A stretch of DNA of 52,088 nucleotides from an uncultured Bacteroidales bacterium (GTDB taxonomy: Bacteria > Bacteroidota > Bacteroidia > Bacteroidales > UBA932): assembly GCA_900320185.1 (NCBI GenBank), contig ONRD01000013.1, positions 1-52,088 of the forward strand, given 5' to 3'. The stretch's first letter is position 1. Each line of letters opens with the position of its first letter. The position numbers were made by a program, and so were the translations under genes. Of the stretch, positions 35,515-52,088 are shown one piece after another. A model generated the notes under the pieces. That model was not told the origin of the DNA and did no database searches. It saw nothing but the letters and a program-made list of their open reading frames with translations.

Positions 35515-36768
35515 TCAGAGGCAGGCTTCGAAAGCTTTGCGTATCATTTCCACGGAATCCAGTTTTTCCCATCCGAAGAACTGGATTTCCTGCTCTGTTT
35601 CGCGGCCTCCCCTGATGAGGGTGACTTTCCGGGTGTATGGTTCACGCCCGAAATGGCCGTAGGATGCGGTGGGCTCGTAGATAGGGTTCTTCAGCCCGAA
35701 CTTGTTGATTATGGCTGCAGGACGGAGGTCGAAAAGCTCACCGACCTTCTTGGCGATCAAGGCATCGGAGACTATGCCCGTACCTTTGGTATCCACGAAT
35801 ATGCTGACGGGTTCGGCGATTCCGATCGCGTAGGCGACCTGAACGACCATCTCCTCGGCAATCCCGGCGGCCACCATGTTCTTGGCAATGTAGCGGGCGG
35901 CATAGGCTCCGCTCCTGTCAACCTTGGAAGGGTCCTTGCCCGAGAACGCTCCGCCTCCGTGAGGGGCGCGTCCGCCGTAGGTGTCCACGATGATCTTTCG
36001 GCCGGTAAGGCCCGTGTCGCCCGCAGGGCCGCCGATGACGAACTTGCCGGTCGGGTTGACGTGGAGGATGAAGTGGGAGTCGAACAGGGAGGCGGTCTCC
36101 TTGTCGAGGCGGCCTATGACCTTGGGAATGAGGATGTTCCTGACATCGTTCTCTATCCTTTGGTGCATCGCTTCGTCGGTGTCGAACTCGTCGTGCTGGG
36201 TGGAAACGACGATCGTGTGTACCCTGACCGGATGGTTGGACTCGTCGAATTCAAGGGTGTACTGGGACTTCGCGTCGGGCCGGAGATAGGGCATCAGCTG
36301 CGGCTCGTCGTGGCGGATGTCAGAGAGCGTCTTGAGGGTCAGGTGAGAAAGGTACAGGGCGAGGGGCATGTAGTGCTCGGTCGCCTTGCAGGCATATCCG
36401 AACATCATGCCCTGGTCGCCGGCCCCCTGCTGCTCGGGGTCTTCCCGTTCCACTCCGCGGTTGATGTCGCCGCTCTGCTCGTGGATTTCCGAAAGGACTC
36501 CGCAGGAGTTGCCGTCGAACATGTACTCGGAATTGTCGTAGCCTATGCGGTTGATGACGCGGCGCACCGTGTTGCGGATGTCGACGTAGGCGTCCGAGCG
36601 CACCTCTCCTCCCACCAGGACGAGACCTGTGGAGCAGAAAGTTTCACAAGCTACCTTTGATTCGGGGTCCTGGCGCAGGAATTCGTCGAGGATCGCATCT
36701 GAGATCTGGTCGGCCACCTTGTCCGGGTGGCCTTCGGAAACTGATTCCGAAGTGAAAAGATAATTCAT
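35515..36768 (-). CDS. metK: S-adenosylmethionine synthetase
   Basis: A 417-residue cytoplasmic enzyme making S-adenosylmethionine from Met and [21 protein letters not shown] at the N-terminus, [12 protein letters not shown] (ATP binding), and [19 protein letters not shown] (phosphate loop) are intact. Length is about 30 residues more than E. coli MetK because of inserts near 100 and 165, which is common in Bacteroidota. Translation is very probably controlled by the SAM-II riboswitch that ends just before its ATG, giving feedback by the product. Monocistronic, ending at the bidirectional terminator. Confidence 0.97.
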
Positions 36769-36822
36769 GTCTTTAGCATTTTTTAGACCGAGGTTGCAAG
36801 CGGTTCAAATCCGTCCTCGGAA
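36769..36822 (-). promoter_or_regulatory. SAM-II riboswitch before metK
   Basis: Read on the minus strand, CCGAGG (36820-36815) pairs with CCTCGG (36793-36788) as helix P1. The loop has GATTTGAACCG then CTTGCAA, and after P1 come TCTAAAA and ATGCTAAAG. These blocks align with the SAM-II aptamer as I know it from the environmental metX structure: GAUUUAACCG, UUGCAA, UAAA and GCUAAA in the same order and spacing. The 3' GCTAAAG, which forms the H-type pseudoknot, ends two bases before the ATG, so SAM binding would hide the initiation region. SAM-II is known from Alphaproteobacteria and Bacteroidota. Recognised by eye, not by covariance search. Confidence 0.88.
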
Positions 36823-36831
36823 GTTTGGTTG

Positions 36832-37026: not shown

Positions 37027-40000
37027 ATGATTCAACTAGCTAAAAGAGGATTTGCGACACTTGTTGCGATCTTTGTCGGAGTCGCGGCCTTCTCCCAGGT
37101 CACTACTTCCAGCCTTGCCGGACAACTCTCGGAAGAGAACGGCGACCCTCTCGCTGGTGCGGCCATCGTGGCCGTCCACATGCCTTCGGGTACCCAGTAT
37201 GCTACCGTTGCCAACGCCGAAGGACGTTATGTCATCAACGGTATGCGAGTCGGAGGACCCTACAAGGTTACCATTTCGTTCCTTGGATTCCAGACTCTGG
37301 AATACAACGATGTCACCCTCCAGCTTGCCGAGACCTACAATCTCAACGCAGTAGTGAAGGCTGACGCAGAACAGCTTGCCTCAGCGGTCGTCATGGCATC
37401 CCCCACTTCCAAGTTTGCCGTGGAAAAGACCGGAGCCGCCACGAACATCAGTTCCGCCCAGATAGTCAGCGTGCCGACTGTCTCCAGGAGCATCACCGAT
37501 GTCACCAGGCTTTCTCCTTACGGAGGCAACGGGATGAGCTTCGTCGGTTCCGACGGCCGTAACGCCAACTTCACAGTTGACGGTGCGAACTTCAACAACA
37601 ACTTCGGTCTTTCCGACAAGCTTGCCGGCGGCGGCAGCCCTATCTCTATCGACGCCCTCGAGGAGATGCAGGTCGTGATTTCCCCTTACGATGTACGCCA
37701 GACCAACTTCATCGGCGGCGGCGTGAACGCCATCACCAAGTCAGGTACCAACACCTTCAGGGGGTCGGCCTACATCTATCACCGCAACGAGTTCATGCAC
37801 GGTGACACCGTCTACGGCACTGACCTTTATGCAGGTGACCGCGACAAGGACCGCAACACCACATACGGACTGACCTTCGGCGGCCCCATCATCAGGAACA
37901 AGCTCTTCTTCTTCGTGAACTACGAGCAGTCCAAGATCCCTACGGTGGCTAACCGCTGGAAGGGCTCCACGGACGGGGTGGGGAGTGACGTGACCAACAC
38001 TTCCAGGACCACCCTCGCCGACCTCGAGACTGTTTCCAACTTCGTGAAGAGGACCTACGGCTACGACACCGGTTCATGGACCAGCTTCCCCGCCAACGAG
38101 AGCAACCGCAAGATCCTTGCGCGCATCGACTGGAACATCACCGACGCCCACCATCTCGCACTGCGCTACAACACCACCCTGAACAAGGCATGGAACGCTC
38201 CCAACGCTTCTTCCATGGACGGTGGTGTCCGTTCTTCATATTCCCGCATGGGACTCTACTCGATGTCCTTCGCCAACACCATGTATTCGATGGACAACAA
38301 GGTGGACACCTGGTCCCTTGACCTGAACAGCCGCCTGAGCGACAACCTTGCCAACCAGTTCCTTGCGACATATTCCCAGATCGCCGACCTGCGCGGCTCC
38401 AACTCCGACGAGTTCCCGCATATCGACATCCTTGACGGCACGGGGACCAACGGCAACTACATGGCCCTCGGCTATGAGCTCTTCACCTGGAACAACGCCG
38501 TCCACAACAACACCATCACCGTCAAGGACGAGCTGACTTATTTCGCCGGCACACACAAGGTCACCGGTGGAATCTCCTACGAGTACCAGATGGCTGACAA
38601 CCAGTACATGCGCAACGGTACCGGTTACTACCGCTACGAAAGCATGAACGACTTCCTCACGGGAGCCGCCCCCAGCATCGTCTGCCTGACCTACGGCTAC
38701 AACGGGGAGAAGGACCCTGCAGCCAGGGTGCAGTTCCACAGGCCCGGCGTCTATCTCCAGGACGAGTGGAACCCTTCCAGGAACTTCAAGGTTACCGCCG
38801 GCCTCCGTCTTGACGGCCTGTTCTTCGACAACGGCGACCTGATGACCAACAACAAGATACTTGAATCCACCTATTACGACGAGAACGGCAATGCCCGCCA
38901 CGTCGATACCGGCAAGTGGCCTTCCGCCAACCTCACAATCTCCCCGCGTGTCGGATTCTCCTGGGACGTGCTCGGCGACAAGAGCCTGAAGGTCCGCGGA
39001 GGAAGCGGCCTCTTCCAGGGACGCCTGCCCCTTGTGTTCTTCACCAACATGCCCACCAACTCCGGTATGATCCAGTACCAGGCCCAGATCAACGGGACGA
39101 CCAAGGTCTGGGACGGCAAGACCGGCAAGGCCGTCAGCGGCTTTGAGAACTACACCGGAGCCACCACGTCCAACGCCGGCGGTGACAAGTTCATCGACAT
39201 GGGACAGTTCGCAGGCGGCCTCGTGACCGATGCCAACGGCAAGGCCACCATCGACGCCCTCCTCGGCAAGCTCACCTCCATGGGTTATCCTGCCACCATC
39301 GATCCTTCCAAGGGTTCCAAGCCTTCCGCGATCAACGGAGTGGATCCCAACTTCAGGCTGCCCCAGGTCTGGAAGACTTCCCTCGCAATCGACTACGCCT
39401 TCCCGACTTCCTTCCCGATGAGCATTTCCGCCGAAGGGATATTCAACAAGACCATCAACGCCGTGACCATCTCCGACTGGAGCATGATGGATCCTGCCGG
39501 GTTCGCAAGGTTCAACGGGGCTGACAACCGCCCGATCTTCCCGACTCCTTTCAGGACCGACACCAAGGCTTTCGTCCTCGAGAACACGAGCCGCGGCTAC
39601 GGTTATTCCGCCAACCTGACGTTCAACGTCCGCCCTGTCGAGGGCCTGAGCTTCATGGCGGCCTACACCCACACCGTGTCCAAGGAAGTCACCGGCATGC
39701 CCGGTTCGGCAGCCGAGTCCGCCTTCACTTATGTCCCTACCTACGAGGGCCCCAACAAGATCAAGCTCCACAATTCGCAGTATGTGACTCCGGACCGCGT
39801 GATCGCTTCCCTTACCCATCATGACAAGAGCGGCAACCACTTCAGCTTCATCTATGAGACCTGGAGGGGCGGCTACAACTACTCCTACATGACTACCAAC
39901 GACATGAACGGCGACGGCTACAACTACGATGCGATCTACATCCCTTGCGACGACGAGGTCACCGGAAAGCAGTTCCGCTTCGTGAGCCAGGACGATGCCG

Positions 40001-40401
40001 ACCGTTTCATGGCTTTCGTCCACAACGATTCCTACCTCAAGAAGCACCAGGGCCAGTATGCCGAGGGTTACAGCGTCTATTCTCCCTGGGTCCACAGGGT
40101 CGACTTCGGCTACAAGCATGACTTCTCGGTCAAGGTGGGCGGCAGCGTGAACACGCTCCAGCTCTGCTTCGACCTCAAGAACGCCCTCAACCTCTTCAAC
40201 TCCAGCTGGGGCGTGTCCAAGGCCATGAACTCCTCGCTTGTCTCAGGACGTATCCTCAAGTACGAGGGTGTCGACGGAGACGGCTACGCCACCTTCTCGA
40301 CCCCTGCAGCCGTCAGCGGCAGTACCAAGACCTGGGTCCCCCTGTACAACCTCTCCCAGTGCTGGTACGCTTCCATCGGTATCAGGTACATGTTCAACTA
40401 A
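37027..40401 (+). CDS. Oar-like TonB-dependent receptor
   Basis: An 1124-residue outer-membrane protein. A signal peptide (ATLVAIFVGVAAFSQ) is followed by a carboxypeptidase-regulatory-like domain (about 30-112). Then come a plug with AVVMASPTSKFAVEKTGAAT, the Oar-type SFVGSDGRNANFTVDGANFN and the SPYDVRQTNFIGGGVNAIT segment, and a large beta-barrel ending in GIRYMFN. The Oar family was first known from Myxococcus adhesion and development proteins, but in Bacteroidota it behaves as a group of TonB-dependent receptors without SusD. Encoded 15 bases before a BACON/OB-fold lipoprotein, its likely partner. Substrate not evident; see the locus finding. Confidence 0.9.
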   Translation: MIQLAKRGFATLVAIFVGVAAFSQVTTSSLAGQLSEENGDPLAGAAIVAVHMPSGTQYATVANAEGRYVINGMRVGGPYKVTISFLGFQTLEYNDVTLQLAETYNLNAVVKADAEQLASAVVMASPTSKFAVEKTGAATNISSAQIVSVPTVSRSITDVTRLSPYGGNGMSFVGSDGRNANFTVDGANFNNNFGLSDKLAGGGSPISIDALEEMQVVISPYDVRQTNFIGGGVNAITKSGTNTFRGSAYIYHRNEFMHGDTVYGTDLYAGDRDKDRNTTYGLTFGGPIIRNKLFFFVNYEQSKIPTVANRWKGSTDGVGSDVTNTSRTTLADLETVSNFVKRTYGYDTGSWTSFPANESNRKILARIDWNITDAHHLALRYNTTLNKAWNAPNASSMDGGVRSSYSRMGLYSMSFANTMYSMDNKVDTWSLDLNSRLSDNLANQFLATYSQIADLRGSNSDEFPHIDILDGTGTNGNYMALGYELFTWNNAVHNNTITVKDELTYFAGTHKVTGGISYEYQMADNQYMRNGTGYYRYESMNDFLTGAAPSIVCLTYGYNGEKDPAARVQFHRPGVYLQDEWNPSRNFKVTAGLRLDGLFFDNGDLMTNNKILESTYYDENGNARHVDTGKWPSANLTISPRVGFSWDVLGDKSLKVRGGSGLFQGRLPLVFFTNMPTNSGMIQYQAQINGTTKVWDGKTGKAVSGFENYTGATTSNAGGDKFIDMGQFAGGLVTDANGKATIDALLGKLTSMGYPATIDPSKGSKPSAINGVDPNFRLPQVWKTSLAIDYAFPTSFPMSISAEGIFNKTINAVTISDWSMMDPAGFARFNGADNRPIFPTPFRTDTKAFVLENTSRGYGYSANLTFNVRPVEGLSFMAAYTHTVSKEVTGMPGSAAESAFTYVPTYEGPNKIKLHNSQYVTPDRVIASLTHHDKSGNHFSFIYETWRGGYNYSYMTTNDMNGDGYNYDAIYIPCDDEVTGKQFRFVSQDDADRFMAFVHNDSYLKKHQGQYAEGYSVYSPWVHRVDFGYKHDFSVKVGGSVNTLQLCFDLKNALNLFNSSWGVSKAMNSSLVSGRILKYEGVDGDGYATFSTPAAVSGSTKTWVPLYNLSQCWYASIGIRYMFN

Positions 40402-40416
40402 TCACAGACGACAGAT

Positions 40417-41919
40417 ATGAAACTCAAATATGCAATTGCGGCTCTCGCTGCTGTCATAGGCATCGCTGTTTCCTGCGAAAAGGAGGCCGACAGCTATCTT
40501 GACGAAGTCCGCGTGTCTTCTTCCTACATCGGCCTTCCCTCAGCAGGAGGTTCGCAGACCATCACCGTCAAGGCTACCGACTCCTGGTCAGTTACCGGCA
40601 AGGTCCCTTCATGGCTTACCATAAGCCCTATCAACGGTGCTGCCGGCGAGACCAACATGACCTTCACCGCCACTGCTGCCACCGCCACCAGGGACACCAC
40701 CATAACCCTCACCTGCGCGGGCATGACCCAGCTCATCAACGTGATCCAGCAGACCATCAAGACCGCCCTCCCTGTCTCCACATGCGAGGAGGTCCTTGGT
40801 GGAGTCGACGGCAAGTCCTACAGGATCAAGGGTCCCGTCACCGCGATATCCAGCACTTCCTACGGCAACGTCTATGTCAACGACGGTACCGGTTCAGTGT
40901 ATGTCTACGGCCTTCTCAAGGACGGTTCCTATCCCAAGGACCATTCCAAGGGTTGGGAAGGCTTCGGGATCGAGGTTGGTGACATCATCACCGTAGAAGG
41001 CCCCAGGTCCACCTATGGCAGCACCATAGAACTCGTGGACGCAGAGCTGATCGAAGTCGAGAAGTCCCTCATCAAAGTCAACGAGGACCCTGAGAACGTC
41101 GCCAAGGAAGGCGGCGAGTTCACCGTCGAGCTCACCAACAAGGGTGACGGTGTCTCCGTGGTGATCCCTGACAACGCCAAGTCCTGGCTCTCAGTCACTT
41201 CCGTGGTGACCTCCGGGACCACGACCACCGTGACTTTCCTTGCACAGCCCAATGAAGGCGGCATCCGCGAGGAAGCCCTGACTTTCACGACAACCAAGGA
41301 CGGAAAGACCTATTCCGCGCAGACGAAGGTCACGCAGGAAGGTTCCATCGTAGAGACCACAGTCGAGGAAATCTGCAACGCTCCCGACGGGACCGCGCAG
41401 TTCAGGGTGACCGGTTATGTCACTTCCCGGATCAGCGGCAAGTACACCAACTACTACATCACCGACTACACCGGAACCGTCCAGGTCTATGACAGGAACG
41501 TCCAGTGGACCGAGCATCTCGGACACATCATCACCATCGTAGGAAGCAAGACGTCCTATAACCAGGCTCCCGAGATGGTCAGCATCACTGTCGAGAAGGA
41601 CATCGACGTCACGGACATCACCGTCGCGGAGTTCCTCGAGAAGAGCGATGACAAGAATGTCTGGTACCGTCTCTCCGGAACCGCCGTCGGCATCAAGGAC
41701 ACCGACGTGTACGGCAACTTCAACCTCAGGGATGCTACCGGCGAAGTCTATGTCTATGGCCTTCTCAACGGCTGGGGCGGCCCCAAGAAGCAGTTCCAGA
41801 CCCTTGGCATCAAGGAAGGCGACAGCCTCACCATCGTTGGCTACCGTACCTCCTTCACCGACAAGCAGGGTGTGAAGACCGAAGAGGTCGGCGGAGCATT
41901 CTTCGTGAGCAAGGACTAG
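40417..41919 (+). CDS. BACON/OB-fold lipoprotein 1
   Basis: A 500-residue lipoprotein (lipobox AVSC, Cys20). Domains in order: a BACON beta-sandwich at about 30-115 (LPSAGGSQTITVKATDSWSV, PSWLTISP), an OB-fold-like domain at 118-212 (YRIKGPVTAISSTSYGNVYV then VYVYGLL), a second BACON-like domain at 216-305, and two further OB-fold-like domains at about 312-395 and 398-500 (YRLSGTAVGI, GNFNLRDATGEVYVYGLL). The OB repeats resemble those joined to secreted nucleases such as YhcR, which bind nucleic acid. No catalytic domain is present. It probably binds substrate at the surface for the Oar-like receptor encoded just upstream. A terminator follows. Confidence 0.8.
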   Translation: MKLKYAIAALAAVIGIAVSCEKEADSYLDEVRVSSSYIGLPSAGGSQTITVKATDSWSVTGKVPSWLTISPINGAAGETNMTFTATAATATRDTTITLTCAGMTQLINVIQQTIKTALPVSTCEEVLGGVDGKSYRIKGPVTAISSTSYGNVYVNDGTGSVYVYGLLKDGSYPKDHSKGWEGFGIEVGDIITVEGPRSTYGSTIELVDAELIEVEKSLIKVNEDPENVAKEGGEFTVELTNKGDGVSVVIPDNAKSWLSVTSVVTSGTTTTVTFLAQPNEGGIREEALTFTTTKDGKTYSAQTKVTQEGSIVETTVEEICNAPDGTAQFRVTGYVTSRISGKYTNYYITDYTGTVQVYDRNVQWTEHLGHIITIVGSKTSYNQAPEMVSITVEKDIDVTDITVAEFLEKSDDKNVWYRLSGTAVGIKDTDVYGNFNLRDATGEVYVYGLLNGWGGPKKQFQTLGIKEGDSLTIVGYRTSFTDKQGVKTEEVGGAFFVSKD

Positions 41920-41940
41920 TCCCGCTGCTCCGAGTTTTAA

Positions 41941-41969
41941 AGAGGCCCCCTTTGGGGGTCTCTTTTTTT
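41941..41969 (+). terminator. Terminator after BACON/OB lipoprotein 1
   Basis: AGAGGCCCCC, loop TTT, GGGGGTCTCT: a 10-bp stem with one G-U pair, followed by a run of seven T. It divides the nucleic-acid-type locus into two transcripts. Confidence 0.92.
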
Positions 41970-41997
41970 GTGTTTTGAATATTTCATCGTATCTTTA
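41967..41997 (+). promoter_or_regulatory. Promoter of the BACON/OB-nuclease operon
   Basis: TTTG at 41967-41970 is the end of the terminator T run; 19 bases later TATCTTTA (41990-41997) is a one-mismatch -7 box. The leader to the ATG at 42068 is about 65 bases, A-rich. Confidence 0.6.
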
Positions 41998-42067
41998 CAA
42001 ACTGCGAATAGCGCATCTTCGTTACAAGCGAAGCAACTGAAAAGAAACAACATAAAAACAACCACAG

Positions 42068-44230
42068 ATGAAATTCAGAACACTCTTCATGAGTACTCTC
42101 GCAGCCCTGGCCTTGCTGGTCGCAGGCTGCGCCGAGGAAGAAAAGGATTCAGACATTCCGAGCCTTAAGGTGAGCTCCACCGAGTTGACGGTGACTCCCG
42201 CAGGCGGAGCACAGACATTCCAGGTGACCTCGAACCGTCCCTGGAAGATTGAGAATACGGCGGACTGGTTGGCAGTCGACCCGGTGAGCGGGAAGGCTTC
42301 CGCCGATCCGGTCACGGTCACCGTCACGGCCCTTCCCAATTCAGGTTACGACCGTACGGCCTCGCTCAAGGTCTCTATGGACTTCGACTACAAGACGGTG
42401 ACGGTCTCGCAGGCAGGCGAGCTTGGCCCTGACGAGTCCAAGGTGCCTTCCGGCACAGGAACCGCCGACGACCCCTACAATGTGATAGCCGCCCAGGCCC
42501 TTGCCCTCGAAGTGGGCGAGGAAGGCAGCGGCAACGTGTACGTCAAGGGAATCGTTTCCTCGATCAGTACCACCACCCTCTCCAGTTTCGGCAACATCGA
42601 CTACTACATCTCCACCGACGGGACGACCGAGAACCAGTTCTACGTCTATCGCGGTCTCTACTTGGGCGGAAACCAGTTCACGTCCCTCAGCCAGCTCAAG
42701 GTCGGAGATGAAGTGGTAATCTACGGAAAGGTCGTCAACTTCAAGGGCAACACTCCCGAGCTGACCCAGGGCAACTATCTCTACTCCCTCAACGGCCAGA
42801 CTTCAGGCGGCGGGATAGACTATGAGAATTGCGAGGAGAAGACCGTCGAGCAGTTCATCGCGACCGGCAATGACGGCAATTACTACAAGCTCACCGGAAC
42901 CGTGAGCCGCTTCAGCGCAACCTACTGCAGCTTCGACCTTACCGACGCCAGCGGGACCATCTATGTCTACAGCGTGGCCAACAAGGACGATTGGAGCGAC
43001 AAGATAAAGAACGGAGGCACCGTGACCCTTGCCGGCAAGTATGAGTATTACTCCCAGAAGAGCCAGCATGAGGTTGTCAATGCGCAGATCCTCAGCTTCA
43101 CCGAGGGCGGCGACGAGCCCGGCGGCGAGACGGCCGAGCCCAAGACGGTGACCATTGCAGAGTTCAATGCTGCTGAGGAATCTTCCACCCAGCCTTACCG
43201 GCTGACCGGAACCATCGGCGGCAGCATCAACACAACCTACGGCAACTTCGACCTCACCGACGAGACAGGTACCGTGTATGTCTATGGCCTTACCGCAACT
43301 AACCTCGGCTACGGTGCTTCGAACGACAAGTCCTACGCTTCCCTCGGCCTGAAGGCAGGCGACAAGGTGACGCTCATCGGCTTCCGCGGTTCCTTCAACG
43401 ACAAGATCGAGGTCCTGTACGCCTACTATGTCAGCCATGAGAGTGGCGAGGGCGGCGACGAGCCCGGCGGCGAGATTGCCGAGCCCAAGACTGTGACTAT
43501 AGCCGAGTTCAATGCGGCAGAGGAGTCATCCACCCAGCCTTACCAGCTGACCGGAACCATCGGCGGCAGCATCAACACCACCTACGGCAACTTCGACCTC
43601 ACCGACGAGACAGGTACCGTGTATGTCTATGGCCTTACCGCCACGAACCTCGGCTACGGTGCTTCGAACGACAAGTCTTATGCATCCCTCGGACTTAAGG
43701 CAGGCGACAAGGTGACGCTCATCGGCTTCCGCGGTTCCTTTAACGACAAGATCGAAGTCATGTACGCCTATTATGTCAGCCATGAGGCTGGCGAAGGCGG
43801 CGACGAGCCCGGCCTCGAGGATGATTTCACGAGCAACGTCACCTGGACCCTCGGCACCAATGCCTACTCCCAGGATGCCACGGTCAACGGCACTGAAGGA
43901 GTTTCCGTCCTCAAGCTCGGTACCTCCAGCAAGGTAGGGGATGCGACCCTGTCGATTCCCAAGGGAACGACGAAGGTCACTTTCTACGCCGTCTCCTGGA
44001 CCAACAAGCCTACCAAACTGGTCGCCAAGGTTGGTGACAGCGAGATCTATTCCGTGGAACCGGCTGTCAATTCCGGTGCCACCGGCAATCCGACTTACAC
44101 CCTGACCGTCGCATCGAGCGACAAGTACACGATGGACCTCGGTTCCGCCCTCGAGGCCGACACTGAAGTCACCGTGACGACATCGGGGACCAACACCAGG
44201 GTGATCATCTTCGCCATCAAGGCCGAGTAG
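42068..44230 (+). CDS. BACON/multi-OB-fold lipoprotein 2
   Basis: A 720-residue lipoprotein (lipobox VAGC, Cys21). Domains: BACON at about 30-120 (GGAQTFQVTSNRPWKIE, ADWLAVDP), a DUF6359-like domain at about 125-250 (GTADDPYNVIAAQALALE), and a divergent OB-fold at 255-345. Two almost identical OB-fold domains follow at 347-461 and 462-576 (YRLTGTIGGSINTTYGNFDL; TGTVYVYGL; KAGDKVTLIGFRGSF), then a beta-sandwich domain at about 580-720. No catalytic site. The repeated OB folds and the neighbouring nucleases suggest binding of nucleic acid at the cell surface. First gene of the second transcript; the nuclease gene starts four bases after its stop. Confidence 0.8.
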   Translation: MKFRTLFMSTLAALALLVAGCAEEEKDSDIPSLKVSSTELTVTPAGGAQTFQVTSNRPWKIENTADWLAVDPVSGKASADPVTVTVTALPNSGYDRTASLKVSMDFDYKTVTVSQAGELGPDESKVPSGTGTADDPYNVIAAQALALEVGEEGSGNVYVKGIVSSISTTTLSSFGNIDYYISTDGTTENQFYVYRGLYLGGNQFTSLSQLKVGDEVVIYGKVVNFKGNTPELTQGNYLYSLNGQTSGGGIDYENCEEKTVEQFIATGNDGNYYKLTGTVSRFSATYCSFDLTDASGTIYVYSVANKDDWSDKIKNGGTVTLAGKYEYYSQKSQHEVVNAQILSFTEGGDEPGGETAEPKTVTIAEFNAAEESSTQPYRLTGTIGGSINTTYGNFDLTDETGTVYVYGLTATNLGYGASNDKSYASLGLKAGDKVTLIGFRGSFNDKIEVLYAYYVSHESGEGGDEPGGEIAEPKTVTIAEFNAAEESSTQPYQLTGTIGGSINTTYGNFDLTDETGTVYVYGLTATNLGYGASNDKSYASLGLKAGDKVTLIGFRGSFNDKIEVMYAYYVSHEAGEGGDEPGLEDDFTSNVTWTLGTNAYSQDATVNGTEGVSVLKLGTSSKVGDATLSIPKGTTKVTFYAVSWTNKPTKLVAKVGDSEIYSVEPAVNSGATGNPTYTLTVASSDKYTMDLGSALEADTEVTVTTSGTNTRVIIFAIKAE
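43106..43450 (+). repeat. Tandem OB-fold repeat, copy 1
   Basis: A 345-bp unit (115 codons) starting GGCGGCGACGAGCCCGG. It encodes an acidic Gly/Glu/Pro linker plus one OB-fold domain. Copy 2 follows directly and differs by only a few residues, for example Thr/Ile, Arg/Gln and Leu/Met. Confidence 0.92.
43451..43795 (+). repeat. Tandem OB-fold repeat, copy 2
   Basis: The second 345-bp unit, in frame with copy 1. A third GGCGGCGACGAGCCCGG begins at 43796 but leads into the C-terminal domain, so the linker acts as the duplication boundary. This looks like a recent unequal-recombination product. Confidence 0.92.
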
Positions 44231-44234
44231 AAGG

Positions 44235-45455
44235 ATGTCCCTGCGCGGAAACATACGAAAGACGATCTTCGCGGCGGCAGCGCTCATCGCGCTGCTGCCG
44301 GTGGTCGTTTCCTGCGGAGGAGGGGAGAGCAAGTCCTCATACACCCCCACACCGGTCCTGTCCGTGAAGACGAATCCTGTTTCCCATGAAGCTGGAAGCC
44401 AGTATGTCGAAGTTTCTTCAAGCGGGGACTGGTCACTGACCTCCAGCGCCTCGTGGCTTACTGCAAGCCCGTCTTCCGGAACCGGCAGCAAGAACAACGT
44501 GGTCCTCTCCTACTCTTCCAACCAGGAGGAAACCGCTCGTACGGCCACCCTTACCCTGACCAACGCAGGCGGTACGGCCACCGTACAGTTCGTGCAGAAT
44601 CCAAAGGGCTCTTCCGGAGGAGGCGGTACCCCGGGCAATCCGGATGGCAGGGGCTGGGGTGCGGCTTCGGCCGACGCTTCCTGGCTGGAACTTCCCCAGA
44701 CAATGGCCGGGGACGGTTTCGAGTTCTTCTGGCATGACATGACCATCGGGGCGGCCAAGACCCGCAACTATTCTTTCTACTGGGATTACGACAACCTTGT
44801 CGCCAAATGGGTGGCCTATCCACTCTGCACCTGGAACATCGGCAGCTCCGTCGGAAGGACGGATGCCTGGGGGCTGGACAAGCTGCTGCCAGCATCCTGC
44901 CAGCCTGACGTCTCGGGCGGATTCCTGGACGGCAACGACGGCTGGTATTCCAGGGGACACCAGATCCCTTCCGCAGACCGCCTGGCCTCCTATGCAGCCA
45001 ATGCCGCAACCTTCTACGGGACCAACATGACTCCGCAGGACAACACCTTCAACGGAGGCATCTGGGCGACTCTCGAGGGCTATGTCAGGAACTGGGCCAA
45101 GGGCAGCGACACTCTCTACGTAGTGACAGGCTGCGTGACCGAAGGTGCGAAGTATTATTCCCTGGACCGTTCCGGGAAGAAGATCACCGTGCCGACAGCC
45201 TATTTCAAGGCCGTCCTCCGCTACAAGAAATCATCCACCATAGGATACAGCGATTTCATGTCGGCCGGGTTCTACTTCGACCATGTGAAGGACAGGAGCG
45301 CAGCGTTCTCGAAATCCTACTCCATGTCGGTTTCCGCCCTTGAGAAGAAGCTCGGCTACAAGCTTTTCGTCAACCTGGACAAGAAGGTAGGGGACGAGAC
45401 GGCAAAGAAGATAAAAGACCAAGATCCAACCACAGTCACCTGGTGGTGGCAATAA
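44235..45455 (+). CDS. BACON-linked NUC1 DNA/RNA endonuclease lipoprotein
   Basis: A 406-residue lipoprotein (lipobox VVSC, Cys27). A BACON domain at about 40-125 (EAGSQYVEVSSSGDWSL, ASWLTASP) and a Gly-rich linker precede a DNA/RNA non-specific endonuclease domain at about 143-400. The active-site His is His242 in YSRGHQIPSADR; the metal-binding Asn is Asn264 in TNMTPQDNTFNGG, followed by the IWATLEGYVRNW helix. The usual Asp-Arg-Gly-His has Ser in place of Asp. Such beta-beta-alpha-metal nucleases cut DNA and RNA without sequence preference. The lipid anchor and BACON spacer suggest display outside the cell. Co-transcribed with BACON/OB lipoprotein 2 and the EEP gene. Confidence 0.88.
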   Translation: MSLRGNIRKTIFAAAALIALLPVVVSCGGGESKSSYTPTPVLSVKTNPVSHEAGSQYVEVSSSGDWSLTSSASWLTASPSSGTGSKNNVVLSYSSNQEETARTATLTLTNAGGTATVQFVQNPKGSSGGGGTPGNPDGRGWGAASADASWLELPQTMAGDGFEFFWHDMTIGAAKTRNYSFYWDYDNLVAKWVAYPLCTWNIGSSVGRTDAWGLDKLLPASCQPDVSGGFLDGNDGWYSRGHQIPSADRLASYAANAATFYGTNMTPQDNTFNGGIWATLEGYVRNWAKGSDTLYVVTGCVTEGAKYYSLDRSGKKITVPTAYFKAVLRYKKSSTIGYSDFMSAGFYFDHVKDRSAAFSKSYSMSVSALEKKLGYKLFVNLDKKVGDETAKKIKDQDPTTVTWWWQ

Positions 45456-45469
45456 CACATACAGAACCG

Positions 45470-46561
45470 ATGAAAAGATTTTTATGCATATTCCTGGCCG
45501 CTTCCCTCCTGGCGCCTTCCGTCATGGCCCAGAAGCCGCAGGGTACCCACGTGATAGGGTTCTACAACCTCGAGAACCTCTTCGACACCTACCACGACGA
45601 GGGGAAGAACGACTACGAGTACCTGCCTGACGGCGCCAACAAGTGGACCGAAGGCAAGTACTGGAAGAAGATACACAACATGGCCCGGGTGATCCGTGCA
45701 ATGAAGGACGACAACAAGGTCTATCACACGATCCTCGGAGTCAGCGAGATCGAGAACCGCCACGTCCTCGAGGACCTGGTGAACGACCCCCAGATCGCCG
45801 ACGCCAACTACCAGATCGTCCATTACGACGGTCCGGACCGCCGCGGTGTCGATGTAGGCCTTCTGTACCGGCCGGACCAGTTCACCCTCATTTCCAGCAA
45901 GTCCATCCCGTTCACCTTCGAGGATTCGGAGGTTGAGTTCACCATGGACACTCTGGAGCAGGCCAATTTCCGCACCAGGGACGTGCTGGAAGTCATCGGC
46001 TCCATCAAGAATCCCGCTACCGGCGCCGATGAGTTGTTCGCCTTCTACGTCACCCACCTTCCCTCCAGGATCGGAGGCAAGAGCGGGGACCTCAGGAGCC
46101 GCGGGGCGGAGATAATCTACCGCAACGCCATGGCCAGGATGCAGGAATATCCAGGCATCAAGATAGCGTGCATGGGCGACATGAACGACGACCCGGTCGA
46201 CGTGAGCATGTGCACCTACCTCCACGGCCTGGAGAGGATCGAGGACGTCACGCCGACGGACTTCTTCAATCCCTTCCTGTCCATGTTCAAGGCAGGCTAT
46301 GGTTCCCTTGCCTACCAGGGAGTCTGGTGCATATTCGACATAATCATGGTCAATTCCAACCTGGCCTCCGCACCGAAGGGCACGTTCTCCATCAAGCCGA
46401 TCGTGAAGAAGAAGTACTACGGCAGGATATTCATCCAGCCGTTCATGGTCGAGCAGGAGGGCCAGTACAAGGGCCAGCCGAAACGCACGACCTCCAACGG
46501 AGCCTTCAACAACGGCTTCAGCGACCATTATCCGACATTCATCGTTATCTCGAACAAATAA
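45470..46561 (+). CDS. Secreted EEP-family nuclease/phosphatase
   Basis: A 363-residue exported protein (signal IFLAASLLAPSVMAQ) of the endonuclease/exonuclease/phosphatase superfamily. The metal site is intact: GFYNLENLFDT (Asn), GVSEIENRHVLEDL (Glu), RRGVDVGLLYR, VTHLPSR (catalytic His), GDMNDDP (Asp/Asn) and the terminal SDHYP (Asp-His pair). I start at ATG 45470 because it begins the signal peptide; an ATG nine codons upstream overlaps the nuclease gene. The chemistry fits hydrolysis of phosphodiesters or phosphomonoesters of nucleotides in the periplasm. No lipobox, so it is likely soluble. Confidence 0.9.
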   Translation: MKRFLCIFLAASLLAPSVMAQKPQGTHVIGFYNLENLFDTYHDEGKNDYEYLPDGANKWTEGKYWKKIHNMARVIRAMKDDNKVYHTILGVSEIENRHVLEDLVNDPQIADANYQIVHYDGPDRRGVDVGLLYRPDQFTLISSKSIPFTFEDSEVEFTMDTLEQANFRTRDVLEVIGSIKNPATGADELFAFYVTHLPSRIGGKSGDLRSRGAEIIYRNAMARMQEYPGIKIACMGDMNDDPVDVSMCTYLHGLERIEDVTPTDFFNPFLSMFKAGYGSLAYQGVWCIFDIIMVNSNLASAPKGTFSIKPIVKKKYYGRIFIQPFMVEQEGQYKGQPKRTTSNGAFNNGFSDHYPTFIVISNK

Positions 46562-46567
46562 GCGAAT

Positions 46568-49495
46568 ATGATAAAGAAACTTACATCTGCAATCCTTGCG
46601 GCCCTGCTCTCTGCGGTGCTCATGGCACAGGCGCCGACCGGAGGCGTCAAGGGAACCGTGGTCAACCGTACGGACAAGACACCTGTCGCAGGCGCGACCC
46701 TGAAACTGATGTCGGGGGCGACCGAAATCGGCACAGTGACGGCCGATGCGCAAGGAAACTTCCACCTGGACGCCCTTCCTGACGGCATGTACGACCTGGT
46801 GATCGATGCCACCGGTTTCCTCACCTCGAGGGTGAACGTGACCGTGAACGACGGCTACGTCAAGAACATGTTCAACCTGTCCCTCTCGCCTGTCGCCGTC
46901 TCTTCCGTGGTCGACGATACCTCCTTCGGCGAGTTCGACCTGGACGGGATGGGCTATGAGGACACACCGACCATCCTGGTGGACCAGAACGACGTGTTCA
47001 ACAACATCGCAGGCTACAATTTCAGTTCCGTCCGGTTCAAGGCCCGCGGCTACGCCAGCGAGTCCCAGGACGTGTACCTCGCCGGCATCAAGATGAACGA
47101 CGCCCTGACAGGGTATTCCCCGTATTCGCTCTGGAGCGGACTCAACGAGGTGACGCGCAGCAAGACGACGTCGATCGGATCGGAGATTTCCGAGTACGGT
47201 CTCGGAAGCTACAACGGCCTCCAGAACATCTACGCGACCCCTTCCAAGGTCCGTCCCGGCACCAGGTTCTCCATCCTGACGAACAGCGCCCTGTACCGCC
47301 TGAGGCTGATGGGCACCTATGCCGTCCCTGAGAATGACAAGGGCTGGTCATATGCCTTCAGCGCATCCGCCCGCCTGGGAGGAAACGACTGGATACAAGG
47401 AGTATATTACCGTTCCTTTGCCTATTATGCCGGCGTCGAGAAGAACTGGGGGGACGTCCACAGGCTCGCCCTCGTGAGCTTCGCGGCGCCCGGAGTCAGG
47501 GGAGCGCAGAACGCTTCCACCCAGGAGGTCTACGACCTGATGGGCGACAACATGTACAACTCCAACTGGGGCTACCAGAACGGGAAGGTCCGCAACGCGC
47601 GCAACAGGATAACCTTCGAGCCCATAACCTTCCTCAAGTACGACTACACCCCGAGCCAGCAGTTCGGCATCTCGGCGACCCTGCTGTGGAGGACCGGGAA
47701 GAACGGCTACACCGCCCTCGACTGGTATGACGCCCCGGATCCGCGTCCGGACTATTACCGCAACCTGCCCAGCTACTTCTACAACGAGAATTCGGACTTC
47801 AACCGCCTGAATCCCGCCAAGGCCGCATGGGCGAGGGATGCGTGGGAGAATAACATCGCAGACGTCACCCATGTCAACTGGGACAGGCTCTACGAGGTCA
47901 ACCGCAACGCCGGAGGCCGGTCCAAGTACGCGCTCGAGGAGCGGCATGTCGACCAGAACGACTTCAATTTCGGTACCGTGGCCACCTGGAAGCCCAGGAT
48001 CAACGTCACGCTGAAGGCCGGACTGAACGCCAAGAGGAACATCACCGAGCAGTACAAGGTCCTCAACGACCTTCTCGGAGGAGACTATTTCCTCAACGTG
48101 GACCAGTTCGCCGAAAGGGATTATTCTTCTTCCAACACCATGATCCAGAACGACCTTGACTACTTCTTCGCCCACGGTGAAGCCCAGAAGGTCAAGCGCG
48201 GCGACAAATATGGCTATGACTACAACGCCCACATCCTCAAGGGAGAAGGCTGGCTGAGCGGCAAGTACACGGTCGGCGGTTTCGAGGCTGGACTCGGCGG
48301 CCGCATCGGCAAGACCGTCTTCTGGAGGGAAGGCTTGATGAGGAAGGGACTTTTCCCCGGACTGGACGGCAACGGCAACCCCATCTCCTACCAGGGCCAG
48401 GTGATAACCACCTATGATTCCGAAGGCCAGGTCATAACCTCGAAGGGTAACTCCCTCAAGGTGGATTTCCTGACATATGCTGCGAAACTCAACCTTGCCT
48501 ACACCTTCAACGGAGGCCACAGGGTCTATGCCAACGCCGGCTATTCGAGCGAGTCGCCCTTGTTCAACCAGGCTTTCATCGCTCCCAGGACCCGCAACAC
48601 GATGATCAAGGACCTTGAGAACGTCAAGTCCCTTTCGACGGATGTCAACTACATGTTCGCCAACAACGGCTACAGGTTCCGCCTGACCGGGTTCTACACC
48701 ACGATCGAGGACCAGACCGACGTAATGAGCGTCTATTACGACCTCAACAACTCCTTCGGAAACTTCGCCCTCCGCAACATCGACCAGAGGCATGTCGGAA
48801 TGGAACTCGGATTCGAAGTGCCTACTCCGCTCAGCGGCCTTTCAGTGGTCGGAGCCTTCACCTATGGTGAATATGTCTACACTTCCAACCCGACCATGAC
48901 CGCCACCGTCGACAACAGTGCGGAAGTGGTCTACGAAGACCTCCTCGTCCCTTACTGGAAGAGCAACCCCGTCTTCAGGAAGAATGCTTCCGGGGAATAC
49001 GTGCGCGGTGCGGACGGCACCTACGAGGTTGACCACTATGCCAAGCATTATGTGCCCAGCACGCCCCAGCTCGCCACCAGCATCGGCCTCTCGTATTTCT
49101 ACAACTACTGGTTCATCGATGCCGACCTCGACTACTTCGACAAGTCCTATCTCGACATGAACCCTCTCTACAGGATTGACGAGACCACTGCCGGAGCCGA
49201 CAAGGTCGTCACGCCCGCCGAAGTCGAGTACATGGCTTCGCAGGAGAAGTTCAAGTCGGCCTGGGTGCTCAATTTCAGCGTAGGCAAGTCCTGGTACTAC
49301 AAGAGGAAGTACCAGTACGGATTCTCCTTGAACGCCAAGAACCTCCTGAACGCCAAGGACATCAAGACCGGAGGTTTCGAGCAGACCAGGATCGTGGACA
49401 ACACTGTCGGCAAGGAGCGTTACTACCGCTTCGACTCCAAGTACTTCTACATGCAGGGATTCAACTACATGCTGAACCTCTATTTCAGATTCTAA
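46568..49495 (+). CDS. TonB-dependent receptor in the nuclease operon
   Basis: A 975-residue outer-membrane receptor. A signal peptide (SAILAALLSAVLMAQ) is followed by a carboxypeptidase-regulatory-like domain (about 24-112; GTVVNRTDKTPVAGATL) and a plug (about 135-235) with TPTILVDQNDVFNNIAGYNF, YLAGIKMNDALTGYSPYSLW and EVTRSKTTSIGSE. A Tyr-rich barrel ends in NLYFRF with the terminal Phe. No SusD partner; the following gene is a DUF5689 lipoprotein 18 bases downstream. It lies six bases after the EEP gene, so receptor and nucleases are made together. I infer import of nucleic-acid breakdown products. Confidence 0.9.
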   Translation: MIKKLTSAILAALLSAVLMAQAPTGGVKGTVVNRTDKTPVAGATLKLMSGATEIGTVTADAQGNFHLDALPDGMYDLVIDATGFLTSRVNVTVNDGYVKNMFNLSLSPVAVSSVVDDTSFGEFDLDGMGYEDTPTILVDQNDVFNNIAGYNFSSVRFKARGYASESQDVYLAGIKMNDALTGYSPYSLWSGLNEVTRSKTTSIGSEISEYGLGSYNGLQNIYATPSKVRPGTRFSILTNSALYRLRLMGTYAVPENDKGWSYAFSASARLGGNDWIQGVYYRSFAYYAGVEKNWGDVHRLALVSFAAPGVRGAQNASTQEVYDLMGDNMYNSNWGYQNGKVRNARNRITFEPITFLKYDYTPSQQFGISATLLWRTGKNGYTALDWYDAPDPRPDYYRNLPSYFYNENSDFNRLNPAKAAWARDAWENNIADVTHVNWDRLYEVNRNAGGRSKYALEERHVDQNDFNFGTVATWKPRINVTLKAGLNAKRNITEQYKVLNDLLGGDYFLNVDQFAERDYSSSNTMIQNDLDYFFAHGEAQKVKRGDKYGYDYNAHILKGEGWLSGKYTVGGFEAGLGGRIGKTVFWREGLMRKGLFPGLDGNGNPISYQGQVITTYDSEGQVITSKGNSLKVDFLTYAAKLNLAYTFNGGHRVYANAGYSSESPLFNQAFIAPRTRNTMIKDLENVKSLSTDVNYMFANNGYRFRLTGFYTTIEDQTDVMSVYYDLNNSFGNFALRNIDQRHVGMELGFEVPTPLSGLSVVGAFTYGEYVYTSNPTMTATVDNSAEVVYEDLLVPYWKSNPVFRKNASGEYVRGADGTYEVDHYAKHYVPSTPQLATSIGLSYFYNYWFIDADLDYFDKSYLDMNPLYRIDETTAGADKVVTPAEVEYMASQEKFKSAWVLNFSVGKSWYYKRKYQYGFSLNAKNLLNAKDIKTGGFEQTRIVDNTVGKERYYRFDSKYFYMQGFNYMLNLYFRF

Positions 49496-49513
49496 GCAAG
49501 GGAGGAAATGACA

Positions 49514-50542
49514 ATGAAAAAGATATTGTATGCTATGACGGTGGCCGTCCTGTGCATGGCCGCCGGGTGCCAGGAGTGGGAACCGGTGATCGGGAACCAG
49601 GGAGAGCCTTCGGACGCCGCGACCGTGACGATGACTCCCAACATGACCATAGCCCAGGTTAAGGAGCTCTACAAAGGGACGCCGTACCATTTCGAGAAGG
49701 ACATAGTGATCGGAGGCAAGATCATCTCGTCCGACATCTCCGGCAATGTCTACCGTTCTCTGTACATCCAGGATGAAACGGGCGCGATCGAAGTGAAGAT
49801 CGGCTCCACCGGACTGTACAACGACTACAAGCTGGGCCAGATGCTCTACGTCAAGTGCGAGGGCCTGACCCTCGGCAATTACGGCGGCATGCTCCAGATC
49901 GGCTACGAGGATCCCACCGGTGAATATGAGACCGCCTACATCGACGTCAAGAGGATCATCGACTCCCACATATTCAAGGGAGCGAAGGGAACTCCGGTTG
50001 CCCCCGAAGAACTCTCGGAAGACGTGGTGGCGGCTGCCGTGAAGGGCGGCTACAAGAGCCCTGTGTTCGGGAAGTACGTGACCCTCAAGGGACTGACCTA
50101 CGCCAATGAAATCTTCGTGCTTGTCTACCTTGACAGCAACGCCAACAAGAAGGCTTCCGGCAACAGGCTCTTCCTCTCCGACCAGCAGTGGGGCATCGAC
50201 ACTTGGGCAATGTCCCAGAACAAGTTCGTGGAGTACCTCGACAGTGGTGTGTGGGACCTTGCCAAGATCGGCAACTCCGGGGACTACAACTACGGGACGG
50301 TCGCCGACCACAAGGAAGAGTTCCGCAGGAATGCATCCGCATATTCCGTGAGCCAGTACTTCAAGATGCCCGGTGGAACGGAGGTCCAGATCCGCAGCAG
50401 CGGTTATGCAAAATTCTCGGACACCAGGCTGGACCAGGCCATACTTGACGGCGGCAAGATCGACGTCACTGGCATCCTGACCAACTATGAGGGTGCCGCC
50501 CAGTTCACCCTGATCGACCTTGACGGCGTCCGTCTCCAGTAA
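49514..50542 (+). CDS. DUF5689 lipoprotein
   Basis: A 342-residue lipoprotein (MKKILYAMTVAVLCMAAGCQ, lipobox AAGC). I use ATG 49514, eight bases after a GGAGG sequence; ATG 49508 is two codons earlier. Residues about 45-150 match DUF5689: VIGGKIISSDISGNVYRSLY, IQDETGAIEVKIG, LGQMLYVKCEGLTLGNYGG. This layout is itself OB-fold-like. The C-terminal half (about 165-342) has a second beta-rich region ending in the QFTLIDLDGVRL strand. Its place after the receptor suggests a surface binding partner, the role SusD plays in sugar systems. Confidence 0.85.
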   Translation: MKKILYAMTVAVLCMAAGCQEWEPVIGNQGEPSDAATVTMTPNMTIAQVKELYKGTPYHFEKDIVIGGKIISSDISGNVYRSLYIQDETGAIEVKIGSTGLYNDYKLGQMLYVKCEGLTLGNYGGMLQIGYEDPTGEYETAYIDVKRIIDSHIFKGAKGTPVAPEELSEDVVAAAVKGGYKSPVFGKYVTLKGLTYANEIFVLVYLDSNANKKASGNRLFLSDQQWGIDTWAMSQNKFVEYLDSGVWDLAKIGNSGDYNYGTVADHKEEFRRNASAYSVSQYFKMPGGTEVQIRSSGYAKFSDTRLDQAILDGGKIDVTGILTNYEGAAQFTLIDLDGVRLQ

Positions 50543-50562: not shown

Positions 50563-52088
50563 ATGAAAAAAGGATTGTCAATCATAGGAGCAACCATCAT
50601 CATGGCAGCTTGTGCACAGACCGGAACCAACCCGTTCCTCCAGGAGTGGAAGACCCCTTACGGAATCCCTCCCTACGACAAGATCAAGACAGAGGATTAC
50701 ATCCCTGCGCTCAAGGCAGGCCTTGAGGAGCAGGACAAGGAGCTCGAGGCGATCCTGAGGAATCCGGAGGCTCCGACCTTCGACAACACCATAGGTGCCT
50801 ACGAGCTTTCGGGCGGAATCCTGTCCAAGGTCGTCGGAGTGCTGTTCAATGTCAACGAAACGGACCGTACCGAGGCCCTCGACAGCGTAGTCGAGCTTGC
50901 CACAGGGCTCCTGACCGCCCATGAAGACGAAATCTCGATGAACAGGGAGTTCTTCGAGAGGGTCAAGGCCGTGTACGACTCCGACCAGAGCGGCCTTACC
51001 AGGGAGCAGCAGGTGGTGCTGAAGAAACTCTACGAGAGTTTCACCCGCAACGGTGTCGCCCTTGACGAGGCCGGGCAGGCGAAGATGAAGGAGATCAACC
51101 AGAAGATCGCCGCCGCCCAGCAGAAGTTCGGGACCAACCTCCTTGACGAGAACAACGCCTTCAAGGAGAGGTTCGGGGTACCGGTGTCTGCATATTCAGT
51201 GGAGATGGCAAGGTGCGAGGACCGCTCGAGGCGCGAGGAGATGTTCAAGGCCTATTCATCAAGGGGCAACAACGGCGGCGACAAGGACAACAAGGCCCTC
51301 TGCCTGGAGATCCTCAGGCTCCGTGCCCAGAAGGCGAAACTGCTGGGCTTCGACAGTTTTGCAGCGTACCAGCTTGACGACAAGATGGCCGGAGACCCGG
51401 CCACCGTGGACGAGTTCCTGGACAAGATCCAGAAGGCTGCCAATGCAAAGGCTGCCGAGGAGGTGGCCCGGATGCAGGAGCTCATGGACGAGGACATCAA
51501 GGCGGGGAAGCTTCCCGCCGGTTCCAGGATCCAGCCCTGGGACTGGTTCTACTATGCCGAGAAGGTCCGCAGCCTCAAGTATTCCCTTGACGAGAACCTC
51601 ACCAAGCCGTATTTCATGATGGAAAACGTCCGCAAGGGCCTTTTCTTCGCCGCCCACAAACTCTACGGCATCAACGTGGAGCCGCTCGACGGCGTGCCTG
51701 TCTACAATCCCGGTGTCGAGACGTTCAAGGTCACCGACGCCGACGGCAGCCTCCTGGGAATATTCACTACCGACTATTTCCCGCGTGAGAGCAAGAGAGG
51801 GGGAGCCTGGATGAACAACGTCCGCGACCAGTACGTTGATGCCGACGGCAACGACGTTCGTCCTATCATAGTGAACGTCTGCAACTTCACCGCGCCCGAG
51901 GGGGATACTCCTTCGCTCCTGACCGTCGACGAGGTGGAGACCGCCTTCCATGAGTTCGGCCATGCCCTCCATGGCCTGCTGACCAAGTGCCACTATCCTT
52001 CCGTCAGCGGCACCAGCGTCACCCGTGACTTCGTGGAGACCTTCTCGCAGTTCAATGAGAACTGGGCTTTCCAGCCGGAGATCCTTTC
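50563..52088 (+). CDS. dcp: M3-family peptidyl-dipeptidase lipoprotein (partial)
   Basis: The first 508 residues of a zinc metallopeptidase; the gene runs off the window end. The N-terminus MKKGLSIIGATIIMAACAQT has a lipobox (MAAC). NPFLQEWKTPYGIPPYDKIK at the start of the mature chain and the long helical region match oligopeptidase/dipeptidyl carboxypeptidase Dcp, and the HEFGH zinc motif lies at residues 463-467. The family removes C-terminal dipeptides from oligopeptides, in the periplasm if lipid-anchored. It starts 20 bases after the DUF5689 gene, so it may be part of the same transcript. The third zinc ligand and C-terminus are not seen. Confidence 0.92.
   Translation, partial: MKKGLSIIGATIIMAACAQTGTNPFLQEWKTPYGIPPYDKIKTEDYIPALKAGLEEQDKELEAILRNPEAPTFDNTIGAYELSGGILSKVVGVLFNVNETDRTEALDSVVELATGLLTAHEDEISMNREFFERVKAVYDSDQSGLTREQQVVLKKLYESFTRNGVALDEAGQAKMKEINQKIAAAQQKFGTNLLDENNAFKERFGVPVSAYSVEMARCEDRSRREEMFKAYSSRGNNGGDKDNKALCLEILRLRAQKAKLLGFDSFAAYQLDDKMAGDPATVDEFLDKIQKAANAKAAEEVARMQELMDEDIKAGKLPAGSRIQPWDWFYYAEKVRSLKYSLDENLTKPYFMMENVRKGLFFAAHKLYGINVEPLDGVPVYNPGVETFKVTDADGSLLGIFTTDYFPRESKRGGAWMNNVRDQYVDADGNDVRPIIVNVCNFTAPEGDTPSLLTVDEVETAFHEFGHALHGLLTKCHYPSVSGTSVTRDFVETFSQFNENWAFQPEIL

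Follow-up and report, generated by a model that had tools for sequence, protein, structure and literature searches.

The window, a stretch of 52,088 nucleotides (contig ONRD01000013.1) from an uncultured Bacteroidales bacterium, contains a receptor and nuclease locus of seven genes. All seven lie where a sequence-only reading of the window had placed them; the domains it named were recovered by Pfam, and no SusD or glycoside hydrolase was found among the seven proteins. The genes and the two candidate signals between them are:

37027..40401 (+): R1, TonB-dependent-receptor-like outer membrane protein with CarboxypepD_reg and OMP_b-brl_4 (Pfam); unit 1
40417..41919 (+): OB1, lipoprotein with BACON and three OB-type repeats, with acidic residues after its lipobox; unit 1
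41939..41965 (+): terminator-like hairpin between units 1 and 2, 12-pair stem and T tail
41967..41997 (+): Bacteroidetes-type promoter-like site before unit 2, TTTG-N19-TANNTTTR
42068..44230 (+): OB2, lipoprotein with BACON and four OB-type repeats; unit 2
44235..45455 (+): NUC1, lipoprotein with BACON and Endonuclease_NS (DNA/RNA non-specific endonuclease, Pfam 1.6e-33); unit 2
45470..46561 (+): EEP, endonuclease/exonuclease/phosphatase PF19580 (Exo_endo_phos_3, Pfam 3.6e-84); unit 2
46568..49495 (+): R2, predicted TonB-dependent transporter, from CarboxypepD_reg (Pfam), its model and Riemerella homology; unit 2
49508..50542 (+): DUF5689 lipoprotein, partner of R2 (Pfam 3.2e-44), modelled as two OB-like units; unit 2

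The hairpin and the promoter-like site near 41,940-42,000 suggest two units, R1-OB1 and OB2-NUC1-EEP-R2-DUF5689. The TTTG-N19-TANNTTTR pattern, which we take to be the Bacteroidetes-type promoter motif, had 4 matches in the window against 0.29 expected. A terminator scan of the region gave 7 such sites against 12 in shuffles, so that strength and place alone speak for the hairpin at 41939-41965. The genes of unit 2 are separated by 4 (OB2-NUC1), 14 (NUC1-EEP), 6 (EEP-R2) and 12 bases (R2-DUF5689). The start of EEP was taken as the ATG at 45470; an alternative GTG at 45443 would overlap NUC1.

Lipobox patterns were found in OB1, OB2, NUC1 and the DUF5689 protein (by pattern and by eye), and in OB1 and OB2 the lipobox cysteine is followed by acidic residues resembling surface export signals of Bacteroidota. 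By the same means the N-terminus of EEP is signal-peptide-like, with no lipobox. Pfam detected BACON, a domain common on surface enzymes, in both OB proteins, together with OB matches below threshold in OB1 and an OB domain in OB2 (tRNA_anti-codon, 48.6 bits with a cut-off of 27). OB2 holds a tandem duplication of 300 nucleotides, 93% identical (window 43102-43401 and 43447-43746), and two of its four OB repeats fall inside it; the OB copy number runs from 1 to 7 among OB-bearing lipoproteins of the window's genus. NUC1 enzymes usually read DRGH, and the window NUC1 has S in place of the D. CarboxypepD_reg was the only Pfam domain of R2, with no barrel or plug match, and the DUF5689 protein gave no DUF5017 match in Pfam.

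When the own genome and 60 relatives were searched, full-length R2 turned up in 26 of the 37 genus genomes, the window's among them, with 53-78% identity to the window copy. For comparison we used 26 loci from the 25 other genomes and one further locus, L240. Because all 27 repeat NUC1-EEP-R2-DUF5689 in one direction, this arrangement is beyond chance. On rechecking, NUC1 immediately preceded EEP in 26 of 27, and the exception (L037) is an overlap of frames. The NUC1 genes keep the RGH motif in 27/27 loci and a PQx4N-type pattern in 25/27; for EEP, the pattern [NT]HxPSR was too strict (12/32) and was not used. An R1-like gene was located upstream in 10 of the 27 loci, some stretches ending too early to show one, and in L053, L054 and L055 genes other than R1 lie upstream of OB2. 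R1-OB1 is a separate, variable unit.

Three further sets of loci were compared. The phylum sample of 296 genomes, each at least 90% complete, contained 86 genomes matching R2 at E <= 1e-40. In 44 of them, window included, the match was in one piece above 640 bits, well apart from matches below 240 bits; two further R2 genes were split (300-394 bits per piece). Forty of the 43 others were compared. In the order sample R2 matched at E <= 1e-90 in 150 of 295 genomes, from which 60 loci were taken, chiefly one per family; without L240, which belongs to the genus, and with 8 further loci of the order, these gave 67 loci outside the genus. The third set came from a named scan centred on Weeksellaceae, which confirmed 383 loci, the best 80 of them being used; it shares some genomes with the phylum set, and the sets were not summed. 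By one script, the gene right after R2 was DUF5689 in 65/67 other Bacteroidales, 38/40 phylum and 79/80 Weeksellaceae-centred loci. EEP adjoined R2 in 44 of the 67 (42 divergent and 2 co-directional), 28 of the 40 and 77 of the 80. The Bacteroidales remainder consisted of 4 loci at a contig edge, 7 with EEP elsewhere in the stretch and 12 in which it was not found; the phylum remainder was 1 at an edge and 11 not found, nine of the latter from a single genus (g31) whose other four loci out of 13 have EEP. These misses are partly gene-calling effects: L247, L174 and L120 do show DUF5689 on inspection, and L251 and L271, counted as having no adjacent EEP, do show it. Downstream of low-scoring R2 paralogues (6 loci) a DUF5689-like gene was present in 1, absent in 3 and cut off by an edge in 2, and EEP was beside none of the six. 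A quick tree, for which 8 of 26 rows were taken from the genus, 12 of 80 from the named set and 13 of 60 from the order, has one branch (length 1.38, SH-aLRT 100) that divides the 82 R2 rows from the 9 paralogues. The conserved core is R2 and DUF5689, often with EEP, found across the phylum.

Compared with this core, NUC1 and the OB arrays are lineage-specific additions, and that of NUC1 is recurrent. In keeping with the earlier proposal of a nucleic-acid locus, the nuclease is not sporadic within the genus (27/27), though of the 107 loci outside it just 9 have NUC1 six genes or fewer away from R2:

L241, L242: NUC1 near R2; same family as the window, other genera
L103, L104, L279, L295: NUC1 near R2; family f26
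L285: NUC1 near R2; family f132
L298: NUC1 near R2; family f103
L270: NUC1 near R2, on the other strand; family f137

PF01223 was confirmed by Pfam in all six that were scanned (L241, L270, L279, L285, L295 and L298), and for L242, L103 and L104 the RGH motif and a profile of our own identified NUC1. Next to NUC1, the lipoprotein carries DUF5689 (Pfam) in L241, L242 and L104, a sub-threshold BACON match in L103 and a sub-threshold OB match in L279. A lipoprotein and a nuclease thus accompany R2 in several families, a pattern with no easy explanation if R2 does not handle nucleic acid. The 26 of 37 genomes with any NUC1 have just 1-5 such genes each, so that chance neighbourhood with R2 should be rare. 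As a separate observation, the NUC1 of L295 (11027-14588, minus strand) has a fimbrillin-like (Mfa_like_1) N-terminus instead of BACON, and the lipoprotein beside it has Mfa_like_1 and a Lamin Tail Domain.

Structure prediction gave R2 the plug and large beta-barrel fold of a TonB-dependent transporter, and DUF5689 was modelled as OB folds, closest to nucleic-acid-binding ones. For the OB domains of the locus the fold was reached by profile or by structure, and scores or models were again closest to nucleic-acid-binding OB folds, which agrees with the nucleic-acid type expected from sequence; these domains and DUF5689 match tRNA-binding as well as single-stranded-DNA-binding OB folds. Single-protein sequence searches of solved structures with R2 and DUF5689 gave nothing useful. 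With profiles, only the CarboxypepD-like N-terminus of R2 was matched, DUF5689 had a match (8jiy) solely through the C-terminal part beyond the DUF5689 region, and EEP had none at E 0.001. When profiles were compared, the OB repeats resembled DUF5689 weakly (probability 10.7, E 0.0029), and in a five-sequence search the OB-repeat profile weakly matched DUF5689 at 63-96 (i-E 0.0007) and 306-332 (0.007).

In Riemerella anatipestifer, RA0C_RS04915 (CarboxypepD_reg, predicted outer membrane) adjoins RA0C_RS04920 (DUF5689 and DUF5017), and markerless deletion of either gene abolishes natural transformation (PMC8459023). In a speculative model of the same authors RA0C_RS04920 binds DNA and RA0C_RS04915 transports it; the pair is reported to be widespread in Flavobacteriaceae, and the nuclease making single strands is left unidentified (PMC8459023). 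The tonBA and tonBB mutants of R. anatipestifer transform less (PMC8383284), and Riemerella columbina is naturally competent (PMC7965970). In the R. columbina genome (L200) we found EEP divergent from R2, followed by a DUF5689 gene with a sub-threshold DUF5017 match, which is the single DUF5689 match of that genome. By pairwise comparison the window R2 is full-length homologous to the R. columbina protein (28% identity, E 5e-99), with E 1e-47 for EEP and 1e-17 for DUF5689. Taken with the conserved gene order and the models, these findings support the nucleic-acid reading. Among the literature searched on DUF5689, RA0C_RS04915 and DNA uptake (preprints and most subscription papers lay outside its scope), PMC8459023 was the only paper found on the pair, and the available parts of PMC11495043 and PMC8289736, which deal with nucleases secreted by Bacteroidota, describe no such locus. 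The idea of ComEC beside R2 in Weeksellaceae, expected from the Riemerella gene numbers, was dropped; by eye the R2 neighbours in L131, L133 and L136 read as Rho and superoxide dismutase, and the R. columbina R2 stretch has no gene recognisable by eye as ComEC.

We consider the locus to be, probably, a surface system for capturing and importing DNA, in which a DNA-uptake core of R2, DUF5689 and EEP was turned into a DNA-foraging unit by the OB arrays and NUC1. The OB1 and OB2 arrays and the DUF5689 lipoprotein, whose folds come from profiles and prediction, would bind extracellular DNA at the surface, and the lipid-anchored NUC1, judged by its family and motifs, would cut long DNA there. DUF5689 would then pass DNA to R2, in the way of SusD or BtuG, with TonB driving the passage; here the pairing comes from gene order, the genetic requirement from Riemerella only, and transport had already been proposed by the Riemerella authors. 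EEP, with its signal peptide and motifs, may degrade or trim DNA in the periplasm. The nucleotides or phosphate would be salvaged, and some strand may still enter through a shortened ComEC.

Several points weigh against this. Full-length R2 was not found in 11 of the 37 genus genomes (8 of those 11 are less than 90% complete), EEP was not found near R2 in 12/67, 11/40 and 2/80 loci of the three sets, and one of the six paralogues outside the R2 clade is also followed by a DUF5689-like gene. The NUC1 and EEP families also include RNases and phosphatases, OB folds bind other ligands too, and after RPA32 the next match of the OB profile is an unrelated Rab protein (E 0.11). The link to R. anatipestifer runs through R. 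columbina and the domain descriptions of the paper. The 16 genes from the Riemerella screen include no annotated endonuclease (PMC8459023), so EEP may not matter for Riemerella transformation, and the tonB effect is ascribed to nutrition by its authors (PMC8383284).

Natural transformation is the strongest rival, though we regard it as unlikely here. R2 and DUF5689 would import double-stranded DNA, EEP would make single strands, ComEC, DprA and RecA would integrate them, and NUC1 would only nick or shorten bound DNA. The Riemerella genetics speak for it (PMC8459023), as do families of Riemerella transformation genes in the own genome (92.8% complete), where family-level matches were found for DprA, HhH (a 344-amino-acid frame), YifB/ComM-type ChlI and NamZ/DUF1343, with one match for the ComEC family (PF03772):

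L302:2120-3253 (-): ComEC, Competence domain only, 377-amino-acid frame

However, this ComEC has neither the N-terminal DUF4131 nor the C-terminal part, and the combination of DUF4131 with Competence was thus not found in it; transforming DNA would be destroyed by a surface nuclease without specificity; and the presence of PF03772 says little, since it is near universal (36 of 37 genomes). For the same reason co-occurrence of R2 and ComEC was set aside as uninformative: PF03772 occurs in 66 of the 67 genomes with an R2 match, and the sole miss, G038 (99% complete), has R2 and no ComEC-domain match. ComEC frames have 351-406 amino acids in 21 of 23 genus genomes searched, with two pieces in G001; the family relatives G453 and G360 also carry a reduced ComEC, and the match of G535 falls in two frames. 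ComEC of the window's family is about 350-400 amino acids long, compared with about 700 for most of the other Bacteroidales that were searched, and Pfam found DUF4131 in 0 of 4 family copies against 3 of 3 others scanned. Outside the family, among 64 genomes with R2 (E <= 1e-90), ComEC had at least 494 amino acids in 62, 317 in G047 and was absent from G038. Parts of ComEC were lost and a nuclease was gained; taken together, these changes lead us to favour foraging over transformation in the window's family, with modest confidence, the reduced ComEC fitting foraging better. As the short reading frame stays intact in many genomes, this ComEC must retain some function.

Scavenging of phosphate or RNA, in which the substrate would be RNA, nucleotides or other phosphoesters and not DNA, seems improbable. 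NUC1 enzymes also cut RNA, EEP relatives include phosphatases, and the tRNA-binding matches of the DUF5689 and OB domains would suit it, but all functional data that we found for the core pair relate to DNA (PMC8459023). Least probable of all is that the locus remodels or clears the extracellular DNA of biofilms or host nets while its receptors import something else, which would suit a lipid-anchored nuclease bearing a BACON domain but meets the tie of DUF5689, and mostly EEP, to R2 across the phylum even where NUC1 is absent, a tie that links the receptor with nucleic-acid functions.

Returning to DNA capture and import, the locus resembles the Riemerella pair RA0C_RS04915/RS04920 in having a CarboxypepD_reg outer-membrane receptor with a DUF5689 gene directly downstream. 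It differs from the R. columbina copy, where EEP is divergent, in its co-directional EEP and the additional NUC1 and OB-array lipoprotein, and from the Riemerella pair in that its DUF5689 protein shows no DUF5017 and the host's ComEC is reduced. With SusCD-type polysaccharide utilisation loci it shares a receptor-lipoprotein pair, a putative surface enzyme, a secreted enzyme and an operon-like run of genes, whereas nucleases replace SusD and glycoside hydrolase among its seven proteins. Compared with the BtuB-BtuG transporter-lipoprotein pair of Bacteroides, the partner here is modelled as an OB fold, with no vitamin B12 link. YhcR/ExeM-type secreted nucleases have OB domains beside nuclease domains; OB domains likewise accompany nuclease domains in the window, but binding and cutting would be mostly on separate lipoproteins, with transporters. 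The DUF5689 model also scored above cut-off in the Bacillus subtilis control genome, perhaps on YhcR.

The locus is best filed as a lineage-specific elaboration of the DNA-uptake receptor pair described in Riemerella rather than as a proven utilisation locus, its use of DNA as food being unproven. The sequence-only reading had seen in it a nucleic-acid analogue of a polysaccharide utilisation locus; the nucleic-acid-handling outer-membrane system, the OB-fold lipoproteins and the co-conserved nucleases stand, while the core of R2 and DUF5689 (with EEP) and the Riemerella pair had been missed. We might speculate, tentatively and with somewhat more doubt than belief, that R2-DUF5689 is a pilus-independent, TonB-driven DNA importer across Bacteroidota, that EEP is the missing periplasmic nuclease of transformation, and that the window's lineage converted this machine to a true nucleic-acid utilisation locus. 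New, as far as our searches go, are the spread outside Flavobacteriaceae, EEP as a partner, the OB fold assigned to DUF5689, and the added nuclease and OB arrays. How DNA crosses the outer membrane of Bacteroidota is unproven; our data carry the pair into Bacteroidales and further families of the phylum, assign to DUF5689 by modelling a likely OB fold of nucleic-acid-binding type, put forward EEP, the neighbour of R2, as a specific candidate nuclease and single out lineages in which the R2-DUF5689 module acquired a putative surface nuclease. Each proposed step becomes testable with few deletions or purified proteins.

Twenty bases past DUF5689 a peptidase-like gene (window 50563-52086, plus strand; HEFGH motif, M3-like by eye) is cut by the contig end, and many genus loci carry a gene of about 655-690 amino acids at this place. 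On the other side of the locus we found a SAM-II riboswitch (RF01726, 51.9 bits, window 36763-36824, minus strand), which sits just upstream of a gene named by eye as S-adenosylmethionine synthetase-like (35515-36768, minus strand).
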